DNA from: Streptomyces sp. MJM8645
Lineage (GTDB): Bacteria > Actinomycetota > Actinomycetes > Streptomycetales > Streptomycetaceae
Length of the DNA: 64,000 nt
NCBI RefSeq assembly: GCF_001625365.1
Contig: NZ_LJJF01000001.1
Coordinates: 4,747,501 to 4,811,500, forward strand
Direction: 5' to 3'
Part shown: positions 34,569 to 41,058 of the stretch, one piece after another
Numbering within the stretch: the first letter of the stretch is position 1
Layout: each line of letters begins with the position of its first letter
Notes under the pieces: generated by a model
What the model was told of the DNA's origin: nothing
What the model saw: the letters and a program-made list of their open reading frames with translations, nothing else
Databases searched by the model: none
Translations under genes and position numbers: made by a program

Positions 34569-35888
34569 ATGACGTCATTTGTGCAGGAACCCTTTTTCTG
34601 GGTCTTCATCGTGGTGATGCTCGCAGCCGTCGGAGCGGCCCTCCAGGCCCGCAGGACGAACCTCGCCCTGCGGAGGCGAAACGTTTCCCTGGAGGAGGCC
34701 AGCGCCCTGGCACAGCGGCAGCGCGACGAGTTCGCCGTGCTGCACGACCAGCTGCGGAACCAGCACGCATCCGAGCTGACGGACGTCCGCCGCGACGCCG
34801 AGGAGGACACCAAGGCCGTCCTCAAGGCGGCGATGCGGACGCTGCAGGGCTTGGCCGACGAGCAGCAGGTCGTCATCGACAAGGTGCAGCGGAAGTACGG
34901 CGACAGCCCGCAGATCCTGGCCGACCTGATGACGATCGACCACACGAACAGCCAGTTCGGCCGACGCGCCCAGGGCATCGCGGTGCTCTGCGGCGGCTGG
35001 CTGGGCCGCCGTGAGAGCGTCGCCTCGGTCTACGACGTGGTCCGCAGCGCCCAGGGCCGGATCCGGCACTTCGACCGGGTGCGGATCCACTCCCAGGTCA
35101 GCGTCGCGCTCGTCAGCAAGGTCGTCGAGCCCGTCGCCGTCGTGCTGTCCGAGCTGCTCGCCAACGCGACCAACTACTCCGCCCCGGACACCCCGGTGGA
35201 GGTCAGCGTCCAGGCCGTCCCCACCGGCGTCTGCCTGATCGTCGACGACGCCGGCCTCGGCATGGGCCAGGAGGAGAAGGACCGCGCGGCGGTGCTCCTG
35301 AACCCGGGCGCGCCGATCGGCCTCACCAGCCTGGGCAACCCCCCGAAGTTCGGCTTCGCCGTCTCCGGCATGCTGGCCGCCCGCTACGGCTTCCGGGTCT
35401 CCGTCGACTCGGTCTCCCCGTACGGGGGCGTGCGGGCCGTGGTGCTGCTGCCGGCCGAGCTGCTCAGCAGCGAGGTCGCGGCCCCGGCCCCGGCCCCGGC
35501 CGCCGCCGTGCACGGCGAGCACCAGGCCGCGCACGGTGACCACCAGGGCGCGCGCGGCGACTACCAGGCCCCGCCGGCGGAGCAGCCCGCGCAGGCCTGG
35601 GCGCAGGCCCCCGGTCAGCGGCTCGTGTCGCTGCCCGAACCGGCGGCGCCGCTGGCCCCGGTGCCGGCGGCGGCGGTGACGGAACCGGAGATGACCGCGG
35701 ACGGACAGCTGCCCCGCCGCCGCCGCAACCGCCCGGTGTCCGTCCTCCCCTCCCCGCAGGACCCCGGCCGGGCCGAGGCACCGGTGCGGAGCCCCGTCCA
35801 GAACACGCCGTCCCGCCTCGGCGCGTTCCAGCGCGGCACGCTGTCCGGGCGCAACACCACGAACACGGAAGGAACCGAGATCCAGTGA
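34569..35888 (+). CDS. cvnA: Conservon sensor-kinase-like protein CvnA
   Basis: The 439-residue protein has one N-terminal membrane helix (FFWVFIVVMLAAVGAALQA), then a coiled-coil-like stretch rich in Gln, Glu and Arg (residues 30-100). Next is a DHp-like region with IDHTNSQFGRRAQG, and a HATPase domain with N-box ELLANATNYSAP, VDDAGLGMG and FGFAVSGMLAARYGF. A Pro/Ala/His-rich tail follows. The large extracytoplasmic sensor of many CvnA proteins is missing, as in the RarA type. The ATG at 34569 is preceded by GAAGAGAG. Its stop overlaps the cvnB GTG. Together with CvnB-D it should form a membrane-associated complex resembling a eukaryotic G-protein-coupled system; kinase activity is unproven. 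Confidence 0.9.
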   Translation: MTSFVQEPFFWVFIVVMLAAVGAALQARRTNLALRRRNVSLEEASALAQRQRDEFAVLHDQLRNQHASELTDVRRDAEEDTKAVLKAAMRTLQGLADEQQVVIDKVQRKYGDSPQILADLMTIDHTNSQFGRRAQGIAVLCGGWLGRRESVASVYDVVRSAQGRIRHFDRVRIHSQVSVALVSKVVEPVAVVLSELLANATNYSAPDTPVEVSVQAVPTGVCLIVDDAGLGMGQEEKDRAAVLLNPGAPIGLTSLGNPPKFGFAVSGMLAARYGFRVSVDSVSPYGGVRAVVLLPAELLSSEVAAPAPAPAAAVHGEHQAAHGDHQGARGDYQAPPAEQPAQAWAQAPGQRLVSLPEPAAPLAPVPAAAVTEPEMTADGQLPRRRRNRPVSVLPSPQDPGRAEAPVRSPVQNTPSRLGAFQRGTLSGRNTTNTEGTEIQ

Positions 35889-36295
35889 GCCGCGATCTTT
35901 CCTGGGTGCTCAACGACGTACTCCAGGTACCCGGCGCCCGGCACGCCATCCTCGTCTCCGCCGACGGCCTCCTGCTCGAACGGTCCAGCGAGATAGGCCG
36001 TGACGAGGCGGAGACCAACGCCGCCGCGATGAGCTCGATGCAGTCGCTGAGCCGCGCGGTCGCCCCGTTCGTCGGCGCAGACGGCGCAGGCGCCGGGGTC
36101 TGGCGCCAGACCCTGCTGGAGTACGACCACGGCTGGATCTTCCTGATCGCGGCCGGCAGCGGCGCGTACCTGGCCGCCTCCACCGCCCCCGACGTCGACA
36201 TGGAGGCGATGTCCTTCCGGATGCAGCAGCAGGTCGGCGCGCTCGGACGGGCGATGTCGGCGGCGCCGCGCCAGAGCACGCTCAGCGGCTCATGA
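35885..36295 (+). CDS. cvnB: Roadblock/LC7 protein CvnB
   Basis: The 136-residue Roadblock/LC7 domain protein of the MglB type starts (GTG) SRDLSWVLNDVLQVPGARHAI and has VSADGLLLERSSEIGRDEAETNA in the conserved core. It overlaps cvnA by 4 bp and cvnC by 4 bp. In conservons CvnB is the proposed regulator of the small GTPase CvnD, similar to MglB for MglA in Myxococcus. Nothing in the sequence departs from the family. Confidence 0.93.
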   Translation: MSRDLSWVLNDVLQVPGARHAILVSADGLLLERSSEIGRDEAETNAAAMSSMQSLSRAVAPFVGADGAGAGVWRQTLLEYDHGWIFLIAAGSGAYLAASTAPDVDMEAMSFRMQQQVGALGRAMSAAPRQSTLSGS

Positions 36296-36666
36296 CGGCC
36301 GGCGGCGAGGAACAGCGGGTCACCGGCGGCTTCATCCGCTCCTACGTGATCACCGGTGGGCGCGAGTTACCGAGTGCGGAGGCCCTGTCTCTGATCACCC
36401 TGGTCACCGTCGCGCCCGAGCAGGACCTCCCGACCCTGCCGAGCCCGGAGACCCGGGCGATCTGGGAGCTGTGCTCCGGCGGCTACCTCTCGGTGGCCGA
36501 GGTCGCGGCCCGGCTGGAGCTGCCGGTGGGGGTCGTGAGGCTGCTGCTGACGGACCTGATCCATGAGGGACGGTTGCTGTGCCGGTCGGCCCCGCCCCCG
36601 GCCCAGGCCCCGGATCCGAGACTTCTAGAGAAGGTACTGCATGGACTTCAACGCCGGTTCGCCTGA
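36292..36666 (+). CDS. cvnC: DUF742 protein CvnC, with a TTA codon
   Basis: The 124-residue DUF742 protein has family motif RVTGGFIRSYVITGGR near residues 9-24 and a winged-helix-like C-terminal half (SGGYLSVAEVAARLELPVGVVRLLLTDLIHEGRL is its span, residues 62-95). DUF742 proteins form the third conservon component and bind the other Cvn proteins; the exact role is unclear. Leu26 is encoded by TTA (36367-36369), a codon read in streptomycetes only by the bldA tRNA. Synthesis of CvnC may therefore be limited to later growth. It overlaps cvnB by 4 bp and cvnD by 26 bp. Confidence 0.93.
   Translation: MTAGGEEQRVTGGFIRSYVITGGRELPSAEALSLITLVTVAPEQDLPTLPSPETRAIWELCSGGYLSVAEVAARLELPVGVVRLLLTDLIHEGRLLCRSAPPPAQAPDPRLLEKVLHGLQRRFA
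36367..36369 (+). other. TTA (bldA) codon in cvnC
   Basis: Codon 26 of cvnC is TTA. Frame and position were checked by counting from the ATG at 36292. It is the only in-frame TTA I found by eye in the protein genes of this window, and it lies early in an overlapping operon. Confidence 0.85.
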
Positions 36667-37231
36667 GGACATCTACGTCCCGGGCGCGGTGACGACCGCG
36701 GTCAAGATCCTGGTCGTGGGGCACTTCGCGGTCGGCAAGACCACGCTCATCGGGGCCTTGTCGGAGATCGCCCCGCTGAGCACCGAGGAGAGCATGACGC
36801 AGGCGTCCATCCGCGTCGACGACCTCCGCGGCGTACCGGACAAGAAGACCACGACCGTCGCCCTGGACTTCGGCCGGCTGACACTCGGCGACGACCTGGT
36901 GCTGTACCTGTTCGGCACTCCGGGGCAGCAACGGTTCATGCAGCTCTGGGAGGACATGGCGCGGGGCGCGCTGGGAGCGCTGCTGCTGGCCGACCCGACC
37001 CGCCTCGCGGACACCTTCCCCGTCATCGACCTGATCGAGCAGTACGGCCTGGAGTACGCCGTGGCGGTCAACAGCTTCGACCGGCAGGACGAGTACACCG
37101 AGGACCAGCTGCGCGAGGCACTCGACCTGCTGCCGCACACCCCGGTGGTGTTCTGCGACGCGCGGGACCAGCGCTCCTCGGCCGACGCCCTGCTGACGCT
37201 CGTCCGGCACCTGCTCGCCCGCGCCTCCTGA
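36641..37231 (+). CDS. cvnD: Conservon small GTPase CvnD
   Basis: The 196-residue MglA/Ras-like GTPase has P-loop VVGHFAVGKTTLIGAL near residues 26-41, switch region TTTVALDFGRLTLGDD, G3-type motif LFGTPGQQRFMQLWEDM and specificity region AVNSFDRQDEY. In the G3 position the canonical DxxG is FGTPG, as in other conservon GTPases. It begins inside the 3' end of cvnC. The adjacent CvnB is its likely regulator. The cytochrome P450 genes that follow are the usual conservon effectors. Confidence 0.93.
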   Translation: MDFNAGSPEDIYVPGAVTTAVKILVVGHFAVGKTTLIGALSEIAPLSTEESMTQASIRVDDLRGVPDKKTTTVALDFGRLTLGDDLVLYLFGTPGQQRFMQLWEDMARGALGALLLADPTRLADTFPVIDLIEQYGLEYAVAVNSFDRQDEYTEDQLREALDLLPHTPVVFCDARDQRSSADALLTLVRHLLARAS

Positions 37232-37304: not shown

Positions 37305-38690
37305 ATGGATTCTCCGCAGCGACCCGCCCCGCAGTCGCCTCCGCAGGGCTGCCCGATGCACGTCGGCGTGAGCACACCGCTCTACGGGGAGATGTTCTCG
37401 TCCGACCCCGGCGCGGTCTACGACAAGCTGCGCGCCAACGGCCCCGCCGCGCCGGTGGAGTTGGCCCCTGGGGTGGAGGCCACCCTGGTCACCTCGCACG
37501 AGGCCGCCCTGCGGGTGCTGCAGAACCCGGGGATGTTCGCCCGGGACTCGCGGCGCTGGGCGGCGCTCAACGAAGGACGGGTGCCGATGGACAGCCCCGT
37601 CCTGCCGATGATGTTCTACCGGCCCAACTGCCTCTTCACGGACGGCGCCGAGCACCTGCGGCTGCGCAAGGCCGTCACCGAGAGCCTGGGCCGGCTCAAC
37701 GACAACCGGCTCAACCGGCACGTCGAGCGGATCGCCGGCTACCTGATCGACCAGTTCAGTCCGCTGGGCCGGGCCGACCTGCTCAACGACTACGCCAAGC
37801 TGCTGCCGCTGCTGCTGTTCAACCAGCTGTTCGGCTGCCCGGCCGACATCGGCGACCGGCTGACCCGCAGCATGTCCGCGCTCTTCGACGGCCTCGACGT
37901 GATCCAGGCCAACGAGGAGCTGACCGCCTGCCTGATGGACCTGGTCGCGCTGAAGCGCCGCCAGCCCGGCGACGACATCACCTCGTGGCTCATCCAGCAC
38001 CCGGCCGGCCTGCGGGACGAGGAGCTCAAGGACCAGCTGGTCATGCTGATGGGCGCCGGCGTCGAGCCCGAGCGCAACCTGATCGGCAACGCGCTGCTCC
38101 TGCTGCTGTCCGGCGAGGGCCGCTCCGGACTGCGCATCGAGGACGCCCTCGACGACGTGCTGTGGAACAACCCGCCGATCGCCAACTACGCCACGCACTA
38201 CCCGATGCAGGACCTCGACGTGGGCGGGGTCCCGATGGACGCGGGCAGCCCGGTGGTGATCAGCTTCGCCGCCGCCAACAGCGACCCCGCGCTGACGGAC
38301 GCCCGGCTGACCCTCAGCAAGGGGGCCCACCTGGCCTGGGGCGCCGGCCCGCACGCGTGCCCGGCCAAGTCCCCGGCCCAGCTGATCGCCCTGAGCGCGA
38401 TCGAGTGCCTGCTCAACGCCCTCCCGGACGTCACGCTCGCGGTGCCCGCGGAGAGCGTGGAATGGCGGCCGGGCCCGTTCCAGCGCGGCCTGGTCTCGCT
38501 GCCGGTCCGGTTCAGCCCGGCGCCCGCCCGGACCGCGAGGCCGGCCGCGGGCGCGGACACCGCGCCGGGCGGATCGCCGGTCGGCGCCGAGGCGACGCAG
38601 GCGTACCCGCAGGCCACCGCCCCCGCGCCGGGCCGGGCCGGGCAGAAGAAGGGGTGGTGGAGCTCCTTCCTGGACGTCTTCCGGGTCTGA
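37305..38690 (+). CDS. Degenerate cytochrome P450 of CYP157 type (CvnE-like)
   Basis: The 461-residue P450-fold protein keeps the haem-ligand Cys352 in LAWGAGPHACPA but lacks three features of canonical P450s. The K-helix ExxR is replaced by DVLW (residues 284-287). The I-helix acid-alcohol pair reads GAGVEPE, with Pro255 in place of Thr. The haem loop has Trp for Phe and Ala for the final Gly. Loss of ExxR is the known peculiarity of the CYP157 family, which occurs in streptomycete conservons next to CYP154 genes. The C-terminal 55 residues are an extension ending GWWSSFLDVFRV. It may be catalytic with unusual structure, or a non-catalytic partner of the next P450. Confidence 0.88.
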   Translation: MDSPQRPAPQSPPQGCPMHVGVSTPLYGEMFSSDPGAVYDKLRANGPAAPVELAPGVEATLVTSHEAALRVLQNPGMFARDSRRWAALNEGRVPMDSPVLPMMFYRPNCLFTDGAEHLRLRKAVTESLGRLNDNRLNRHVERIAGYLIDQFSPLGRADLLNDYAKLLPLLLFNQLFGCPADIGDRLTRSMSALFDGLDVIQANEELTACLMDLVALKRRQPGDDITSWLIQHPAGLRDEELKDQLVMLMGAGVEPERNLIGNALLLLLSGEGRSGLRIEDALDDVLWNNPPIANYATHYPMQDLDVGGVPMDAGSPVVISFAAANSDPALTDARLTLSKGAHLAWGAGPHACPAKSPAQLIALSAIECLLNALPDVTLAVPAESVEWRPGPFQRGLVSLPVRFSPAPARTARPAAGADTAPGGSPVGAEATQAYPQATAPAPGRAGQKKGWWSSFLDVFRV

Positions 38691-38863
38691 CACGCCCCGG
38701 GCTCCGATCCGACGCGCCGTCGGAAGCCGTTCCGCCACCGCGGCGTGAACGGAGTCCGACGGCGGTGCGGGTACGTGACGCGGGCAACACGGATCGACGC
38801 TTGAGCGCGCTGTTGCTGGGTAGATCGCCGCCGTACTGCCCGCCCGCGCGTAAGGAGCCCCGT

Positions 38864-40147
38864 GTGACCGCCACGTTGGAAGCCCGCCCCGCAGACCCGG
38901 AGCGCCCGGACGGAAGGGTGGTCGACCGCCGTGCCGCCGTGCCGCTCCTGCGCAGGCTGCGGTCGGCCGAGGGACTCGCCGACCCGAGCCCGGTCTACGA
39001 CGGGCTGCGGGCGCTGGGAGACCTCGTTCCGGCGCCCTGGGGCGGCTACCTGGTCACCGGGTACGACGCGTGCGACCAGGTCCTGCGCGGCAGGACCTGG
39101 CTCGTCCCCGACTTCGCCTGGCAGGAACGGCAGACCGAGACGGGGCGCTGGGACGCCGTCGCCACCCAGGAGATGAGCCGGACCCTCTCCCGGCTCAACG
39201 CCCCCGACCACACCCGGCAGCGGCGCAGCCTCGGGAACCTCTTCGACCGGAACACCCTGCGGGACATGGAGCCGCAGATCGAGGCCGACGTCGCCGAACT
39301 GCTCGACCGCCTGGCCGAGCGAATACGGACGGACGGCGAGGCGGACCTCTCCGCCCTGGTCAGTGAGCAGCTGCCGATCGGCACCGTCGGGCGCTGGCTG
39401 GACATCGCGCCCGAGGACTACCCGCACATCCTGACGATGACCCACAACCAGGTGCACGCCCAGGAGCTGCTGCCCACCAAGAGCCAGCTGGCGGTCTCCG
39501 AGCAGGCCACCATGGACCTGCGCGAGTACTTCACCCGCCTCGTCCGGGAGCGTCGCGACAACGACGGCGACGACGTGATCGCCGGCTGGATCCGCACCTG
39601 GGACGCGCTGGAGTCCGACCGCGAGGCCACCGACCGGATGGTCTACCAGCTCACCATGTTCGTCACCATCGCCTCGCTGGAGACCACGGCGACGCTGCTC
39701 TCCTCGCTGGTGTGGTCGCTGCTGCGGTCGCCCGGCCGGTGGGAGTGGCTGCGGGAGCGGCCGGAGCACATCGACGACGCGATCGACGAGGCGCTGCGCT
39801 ACGACCCGCCGGTCCGCGTCAACAGCCGCGTCGCGGGCGAGGACACCGAGCTGGCCGGGGTGTTCCTGCCCAAGGACACCATGGTCCACGTGATGTACGG
39901 CGCGGCCAACCGCGATCCGCGCCGCAACCCGGACCCGCACACCTTCGACGTGCTCCGCCGGGGCACCCACCTCACCTTCGGCGGCGGCGCCCACTACTGC
40001 CTCGGCGCGGGCCTGGCCCGGCTGGAGGCACGCGCCCTGCTCGGCCAGCTGCTGCGGCGCTTCCCGACCCTGCGGGTGGCGAGCCCGCCCGAGTACGCAC
40101 CCCGGATGGTCTTCCACCGGGTGACGTCCCTGAGAGTGGCCGCATGA
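38864..40147 (+). CDS. Cytochrome P450 (conservon-associated)
   Basis: The 427-residue canonical bacterial P450 has I-helix FVTIASLETTATLLS, K-helix ExxR at Glu309-Arg312 (DEALRYDPPVRVNSR), and haem loop LTFGGGAHYCLGAGLARLEA with ligand Cys379. The GTG at 38864 follows AAGGAG. It lies 173 bp after the CYP157-like gene and overlaps the next gene by 4 bp (ATGA). It needs external ferredoxin and ferredoxin reductase; neither is encoded nearby. Position suggests the CYP154-like partner of the degenerate P450, but subfamily cannot be fixed by eye. The substrate is unknown. Confidence 0.9.
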   Translation: MTATLEARPADPERPDGRVVDRRAAVPLLRRLRSAEGLADPSPVYDGLRALGDLVPAPWGGYLVTGYDACDQVLRGRTWLVPDFAWQERQTETGRWDAVATQEMSRTLSRLNAPDHTRQRRSLGNLFDRNTLRDMEPQIEADVAELLDRLAERIRTDGEADLSALVSEQLPIGTVGRWLDIAPEDYPHILTMTHNQVHAQELLPTKSQLAVSEQATMDLREYFTRLVRERRDNDGDDVIAGWIRTWDALESDREATDRMVYQLTMFVTIASLETTATLLSSLVWSLLRSPGRWEWLRERPEHIDDAIDEALRYDPPVRVNSRVAGEDTELAGVFLPKDTMVHVMYGAANRDPRRNPDPHTFDVLRRGTHLTFGGGAHYCLGAGLARLEARALLGQLLRRFPTLRVASPPEYAPRMVFHRVTSLRVAA

Positions 40148-41058
40148 ATGTTCCTCCGCAGGCTCCCCAGTACCCCCCGTACGCGATGCAGCCGCCGCCG
40201 TACGTCCCGTACCCCTCGGCGTCGGCCGGCTGGTACCCGCCGGTCCCTCAGTCCTCGTCGGCCCCCGAGCCCGTGCCGGCCCCTGCGCCCGCCCGTACGG
40301 TCCGTTCCGAGCTCCGGGGCGCGGTGCTCCACGTCGAGCTGGACAGCCCGGAGACCGGGAACGCCGTCACCATGGCGATGCTGGACGAACTCCTCGCCGT
40401 CCTCGCCGTCCCCGACCCGGCCGTGCGGGTGATCGTGCTGTCCGCGGCCGGCCGGGACTTCTGCCTCGGCGGCGACCGCGACGAACTCCTCGCGGGCCTG
40501 GACGAGGACCCGACCGGCGGCCGCATACGGGCCTACGGGGACAAGGCCCGCCGGGTCTGCGACGCCCTCGTCAACAGCCCCGCCGTCACCGTCGCCCGGG
40601 TCCAGGGCCGGGCGACCGGCGCCGGCTTCGCCCTGGCGCTCGCCTGCGACCTGCGGGCCGGCGCCGACAACGCCGTCTTCCGGCTGCCCGAGCTGGCCCT
40701 CGGCCTGCCCGTCGCCTGGGGCGGCCTGCTGCCCCGGCTGCTGCACGAGGTCGGCGCGGCCCGGGTCCGCGAGATCATCCTCACCGGCCGCCCGGTCGGC
40801 GCGGCGGAGGCGCGGGAGCTCGCCATCCTGCAGCGCGTCGTCCCCGAGCAGGAGCTGGACGAGGCGGTGGCCGAGTGGGCCCGGCCCATCACGCGCCGCC
40901 CCGAGGCCGCCCTGCGGGTCACCAAGACGCTGCTCGCCTCCCACGCGTCGGCGACCCGGATGGCCGACGCCTCCATGCTCGACGCCGAGCTGATGGCCTC
41001 GGTCCTGGCCGCCGCCCACTACACCCACACCGCCGCCGGCCGGGGGCCGGCCTCCTGA
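40144..41058 (+). CDS. Enoyl-CoA hydratase/isomerase homologue with proline-rich N-terminus
   Basis: The 304-residue protein has about 52 N-terminal residues made almost only of Pro, Tyr, Ala, Ser and Val, then a crotonase domain. The oxyanion-hole segments are RDFCLGGDRDELL and VQGRATGAGFALALACDLRAG. Further conserved parts are ELALGLPVAWGGLLPRLLHEVG and LTGRPVGAAEARELAIL. The usual catalytic glutamates are not clearly in place: the Glu equivalent to Glu144 is in RLPELALGL, and that for Glu164 appears to be lost. Activity as a hydratase is therefore uncertain. It overlaps the P450 gene by 4 bp and ends the conservon operon, an unusual partner for this system. Confidence 0.85.
   Translation: MNVPPQAPQYPPYAMQPPPYVPYPSASAGWYPPVPQSSSAPEPVPAPAPARTVRSELRGAVLHVELDSPETGNAVTMAMLDELLAVLAVPDPAVRVIVLSAAGRDFCLGGDRDELLAGLDEDPTGGRIRAYGDKARRVCDALVNSPAVTVARVQGRATGAGFALALACDLRAGADNAVFRLPELALGLPVAWGGLLPRLLHEVGAARVREIILTGRPVGAAEARELAILQRVVPEQELDEAVAEWARPITRRPEAALRVTKTLLASHASATRMADASMLDAELMASVLAAAHYTHTAAGRGPAS

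Follow-up and report, generated by a model that had tools for sequence, protein, structure and literature searches.

Two P450 genes and a crotonase gene downstream of a conservon

The window, a 64,000-nucleotide stretch of the Streptomyces sp. MJM8645 genome, carries a complete conservon, cvnA-D, followed by two cytochrome P450 genes and a gene of the enoyl-CoA hydratase/isomerase (crotonase) family, all on the forward strand. The cvnA gene (34569..35888, start codon inferred) encodes an HATPase protein (Pfam HATPase_c), cvnB (35885..36295) a roadblock/LC7 protein (Pfam Robl_LC7, 3.8e-18), cvnC (36292..36666) a DUF742 protein (Pfam DUF742, 6.2e-30), and cvnD (36641..37231) a small GTPase that matches Pfam ATP_bind_1/GTP_EFTU and, below the cut-off, the NCBIfam small GTP-binding domain. 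Hydropathy gave CvnA a single N-terminal transmembrane segment (residues 9-27), and neither an extracytoplasmic sensor domain nor a NIT match was found in it by domain search and hydropathy. An initial annotation had placed both P450 genes in the conservon, and the complete cvnA-D set that precedes them bears this out.

The first P450 gene (37305..38690), hereafter P1, is a single open reading frame of 461 residues and encodes a CYP157-like, CvnE-type P450 without the Arg of ExxR and without the I-helix Thr. The second, P2 (38864..40147; GTG start, 427 residues; Pfam p450, 1.2e-23), was described in the annotation as canonical, and we indeed observed ASLETT, EALR and FGGGAHYCLG in its sequence. 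The ATG of the crotonase gene (40144..41058; Pfam ECH_1, 7.6e-40) overlaps the P2 stop codon (ATGA); this gene, which is co-conserved with P2, falls outside the region that had been annotated. In comparison with rat enoyl-CoA hydratase, what we take to be the position of the first catalytic Glu holds Ala, and the second Glu is retained.

We then surveyed the source genome, in which nine DUF742 genes mark nine conservons. A NIT-domain CvnA lies nearby in four of the nine, none of which has an adjacent CYP157-like gene; where CvnA is of the non-NIT type, a CYP157-like gene follows cvnD in four of five cases. This distribution matches that described by PMC13343842 and, in so small a sample, is consistent with it rather than proof of it. 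There, P450 (CvnE) and GAF (CvnF) proteins were found to accompany sensor-less CvnA and were suggested in 2026 to be sensors or modulators (PMC13343842). P1 shares with CvnE its synteny, as a P450-type gene placed after cvnD, with a CvnA that has no sensor domain; however, CvnE is described as a single accessory gene, with no CvnE biochemistry (PMC13343842), whereas two P450 genes and a crotonase gene follow cvnD here.

Motif losses shared by a clade of P450-like proteins

The annotation had read ExxR as replaced by DVLW at residues 284-287 and the I-helix Thr as replaced by Pro255, with Cys352 kept, and both the sequence and our alignment agree with it. The I-helix motif is A251-G-V-E254-P255-E256 (38055..38072), against a canonical AGxETT, with the acid kept and Thr changed to Pro. 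In the K helix, D284-V-L-W287 (38154..38165) takes the ExxR position and is followed by N-N-P-P. Cys352 (38358..38360), the predicted proximal haem ligand, sits in a haem loop that aligns as H342-L-A-W345-G-A-G-P-H350-A-C352-P-A, and is altered as the annotation had stated: Pro follows Cys, and CxG is not kept. We also scanned the whole of P1 for the missing motifs, a check proposed with the annotation. [ED]xxR strings begin only at residues 40, 81, 116, 254 and 457, none of them an ExxR within the K helix, and the sole [ED]T string, at 418, lies in the C-terminal linker, leaving the I helix with no acid-Thr pair. AlphaFold2 (99 aligned sequences) predicted a full P450 fold with a mean pLDDT of 87.5, and the helices of the model at 238-269 (I) and 278-288 (K) cover the motif residues cited above.

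To place P1, we assembled a set of 106 distinct relatives drawn from genus, phylum and plasmid sequences. In an SH-aLRT tree, these form one clade, with support of 100, against 56 canonical P450s. At position 287, 94 of them have Trp, seven Phe and one Arg; at position 255, 70 have Pro, 27 Thr, and eight Ala or Ser. Cys352, H350, H117 and R119 are present in every relative, R121 in 103 of 106. Pro directly follows Cys352 in each of the 106, and only 18 retain the CxG Gly, whereas eleven canonical outgroup P450s have E...R, T and CxG without exception. By these alignments, the clade has given up the Arg of ExxR and the FDxxR meander and has kept most haem-propionate contacts. The motif pattern of P1 is neither chance nor a single lesion, because it is seen again across the whole clade.

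Pro255 marks a sub-clade of 71 rows (support 97), within which two changes to Ala have occurred; a single separate case (L133) lies outside it. Other branches of the clade pair ETT with Trp at the ExxR position, and W287 and Pro255 are therefore separable. The annotation had regarded the loss of Thr as an additional, special step at this locus. This does not hold: Pro255 is ancestral to the sub-clade, a single old event, and a CYP157A with GHQPT and EVLW was already tabulated in 2013 (PMC3599690). In Table 2 of that paper, Svu023 (CYP157A) has GHQPT / EVLW / HRCPFPA, and Svu024 (CYP157C) has AFETT / EQILW. What the annotation had recognized, a CYP157-like conservon protein that lacks both motifs, agrees with alignment and synteny, and judged by these residues P1 is a typical representative of an old clade of predicted P450-like haem proteins in streptomycetes, whose losses are clade-wide. 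In two CYP157-like proteins (L118 and L152), which read GGTAPL, the I-helix Glu is gone too.

P1 resembles the CYP157 family of Streptomyces (PMC3599690, citing a 2006 paper in FEBS Letters) in its P450 fold, the proximal Cys, Trp for the Arg of ExxR, and its place downstream of cvnA-D, and resembles Svu023 in its I-helix Pro and in having CP rather than CxG in the haem loop. Taking 40% identity to a named CYP157 or CYP154 as the family-level threshold for P1 and P2, respectively, we call P1 CYP157-like on its sequence and give it no formal CYP family, because it is 45.6% identical to its own-genome paralogue L002 but only 31.8-37.8% identical to the branches that carry the published CYP157C (EQSLW) and CYP157A (EVLW, HRCPxP) motifs, these branches having been assigned by motif. 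The solved folds closest to the P1 model by Foldseek are CYP154C5, C2, C4 and C1, yet identity to solved CYP154 members is 27-30%, and the CYP154-like partners of other CYP157-like genes retain ExxR and Thr, unlike P1. Nor is the partner of P1 a CYP154, in contrast to the CYP157 genes of PMC3599690: a CYP154-like query was 31-33% identical to P2 homologues, below the 40% threshold, and the top PDB sequence match of P2 was CYP164A2. The motif losses of P1 are on record, and the gene is of a known kind. What is new is modest: residue frequencies across the clade, the comparison of constraint between P1 and P2, the unit of seven genes and the C-terminal tail.

Selective constraint and the C-terminal tail

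We compared dN/dS across eight closely related operons. Median values were 0.21 (P1 core), 0.48 (P2) and 0.47 (crotonase). The mean pairwise amino-acid difference was 0.061 for the P1 core versus 0.128 for the P2 core (95% confidence interval of the gap, 0.041-0.093); P1 is more conserved than the canonical P2. A decaying pseudo-enzyme would account for the missing motifs and for nothing else; with a core dN/dS below that of the intact P2, and with the same states fixed across 106 relatives, we ruled this reading out as extremely improbable.

Beyond the core, residues 406-446 (38520..38642) form a Pro/Ala-rich linker of low pLDDT with a dN/dS of about 1.1, as in neutral evolution. It ends in a tail, QKKGWWSSFLDVFRV (38643..38687), a conserved, Trp-rich, amphipathic and cationic segment with a dN/dS of 0.23, a hydrophobic moment of 0.70 and a net charge of +1, in which AlphaFold2 placed a helix (451-460) with low confidence. 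In kind, the tail resembles the membrane-targeting helix of E. coli FtsA, which we used as a yardstick. A long linker with a short terminal segment was present in 81 of the 106 relatives, and 80 of those 81 have Trp among their last 16 residues; several branches, some from another actinobacterial family, have no tail. Since about one-third of single tails were not clearly above shuffled sequences, the evolutionary contrast between linker and tail is the stronger evidence. A literature search for amphipathic C-terminal helices on bacterial P450s found none, which is a weak negative. A conserved tail on a drifting linker is possibly a membrane anchor for P1. In one CYP157-like branch without the tail, the accompanying CvnA proteins (L053, L058-L063 and L081) are ~100 residues longer between the transmembrane segment and the HATPase domain.

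Gene partners and the possible role of P1

The order cvnABCD-P1-P2-crotonase was found again in other Streptomycetaceae, including on large plasmids of S. fungicidicus, Streptomyces sp. SAT1 and NBC_01558; on an Embleya plasmid, the crotonase gene lies upstream instead. Within the genus, 8 of 70 genomes hold a P1-type gene, and the same eight hold a P2-type gene. This strict co-occurrence in the sub-clade, in genus genomes, other Streptomycetaceae and plasmids alike, is what an obligate partnership would produce, with P1 as an activator or scaffold of P2 comparable to the P450-derived glycosyltransferase activators (TIGR04515), in which a P450 fold serves a partner protein. However, in two genus genomes a P2-crotonase pair stands without P1 or a conservon (L153, 7092-9156; L154, 6871-9004), in neighbourhoods where only generic Pfam matches were found, none assigning a pathway. 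Many relatives of P1 have no adjacent P450, and others have a CYP154-like one (at some loci, the sequence examined extended just 1.5 kb downstream); a CYP154-like gene was the most frequent tandem partner of CYP157-like genes in the sampled loci. P1 and P2 each occur without the other, so partners are exchanged across the clade, with neither P450 strictly requiring the other, and the annotation's suggestion of an obligate partner is not supported. P1 also retains Cys and scores 72 bits against the TIGR04515 cut-off of 343; we rejected it as a member of that activator family, and we consider an obligate protein partner of P2 improbable.

The annotation had also raised a sensor role for P1, which is plausible; conservon P450s have already been proposed as sensors or modulators (PMC13343842). 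We lean toward P1 being a haem-binding, ligand- or redox-responsive modulator of CvnA rather than an ordinary O2-activating monooxygenase. In favour of this reading are the residues conserved across the clade, the constraint on the P1 core, the maintained tail, the lack of any sensor domain in CvnA itself, and the distribution of CYP157-like genes among the conservons of the genome. That CvnE binds and modulates CvnA is a proposal for the class; CvnF8 stimulates CvnA8, and AlphaFold2 placed CvnE11 on the HATPase domain of CvnA11 (PMC13343842). P1 kept the P450 fold and the Cys ligand and most likely binds haem, as predicted from its conserved ligands. It would sense a ligand or redox state and adjust CvnA, and the flexible linker and amphipathic tail may tether it to the membrane next to CvnA. 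P2 and the overlapping crotonase would form an enzymatic module of their own, which perhaps synthesizes or removes the small molecule involved. Only tentatively would we extend this to CYP157-like conservon proteins in general, as membrane-tethered haem-thiolate sensors on an FtsA-like C-terminal helix and a disordered linker, whose oxygen-activation machinery is gone, with ligand or redox state passing through CvnA to a GTPase output and the ligand itself made or cleared by P2 and the crotonase. Orphan CYP157-like genes, free of cvn genes for about 9 kb (L158-L160, L162, L163 and L165), and CYP157-CYP154 pairs outside conservons (L161 and L166) mean that not every CYP157-like protein can act through a neighbouring CvnA.

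The annotation had suggested that P1 may be a non-oxygenase haem protein, but P450eryF is functional with Ala at the I-helix Thr site, and loss of that Thr alone is not enough to abolish P450 catalysis. P1 might still be catalytic by a route that does without the acid-Thr relay, as a peroxygenase, an isomerase or, with its uncommon K helix, a substrate-assisted oxygenase, and its retained haem-site residues, strongly constrained core and the separability of W287 from Pro255 are in keeping with this. CYP152 peroxygenases and decarboxylases are active and have a conserved I-helix Arg-Pro pair (PMC12284513), and P1 likewise has Pro directly after the acid/Arg position. However, the Arg position is Glu254 in P1, on which ground we rejected a CYP152-type peroxygenase, and the ExxR and meander changes are common to a clade with no reported substrate in the literature searched; overall, we regard a catalytic P1 as unlikely. 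Loss of ExxR and of the FDxxR meander, normally tied to fold and haem retention, together with the conserved tail, could instead point to a structural, haem-free adaptor of the conservon complex, with the P450 fold merely a scaffold. That reading leaves the absolute conservation of Cys352, H350 and H117 unexplained, and we think it quite improbable.

If true, signalling instead of oxidation by a P450 fold would be notable: one survey reported CYP157 in 48 of 48 Streptomyces species (PMC6408508), and the conservon cvn8 controls specialised metabolism in Streptomyces (PMC8510531). Concrete, cheap tests follow from the residue counts across the clade, from the comparison of constraint and from the conservation of the tail. 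Among the loci sampled, two (L164 and L167) are tandem conservon-CYP157-CYP154-CYP157-CYP157 arrays, and a P2 homologue in one genome (L096) has ASLEAT, the I-helix Thr of a canonical partner being changed to Ala.
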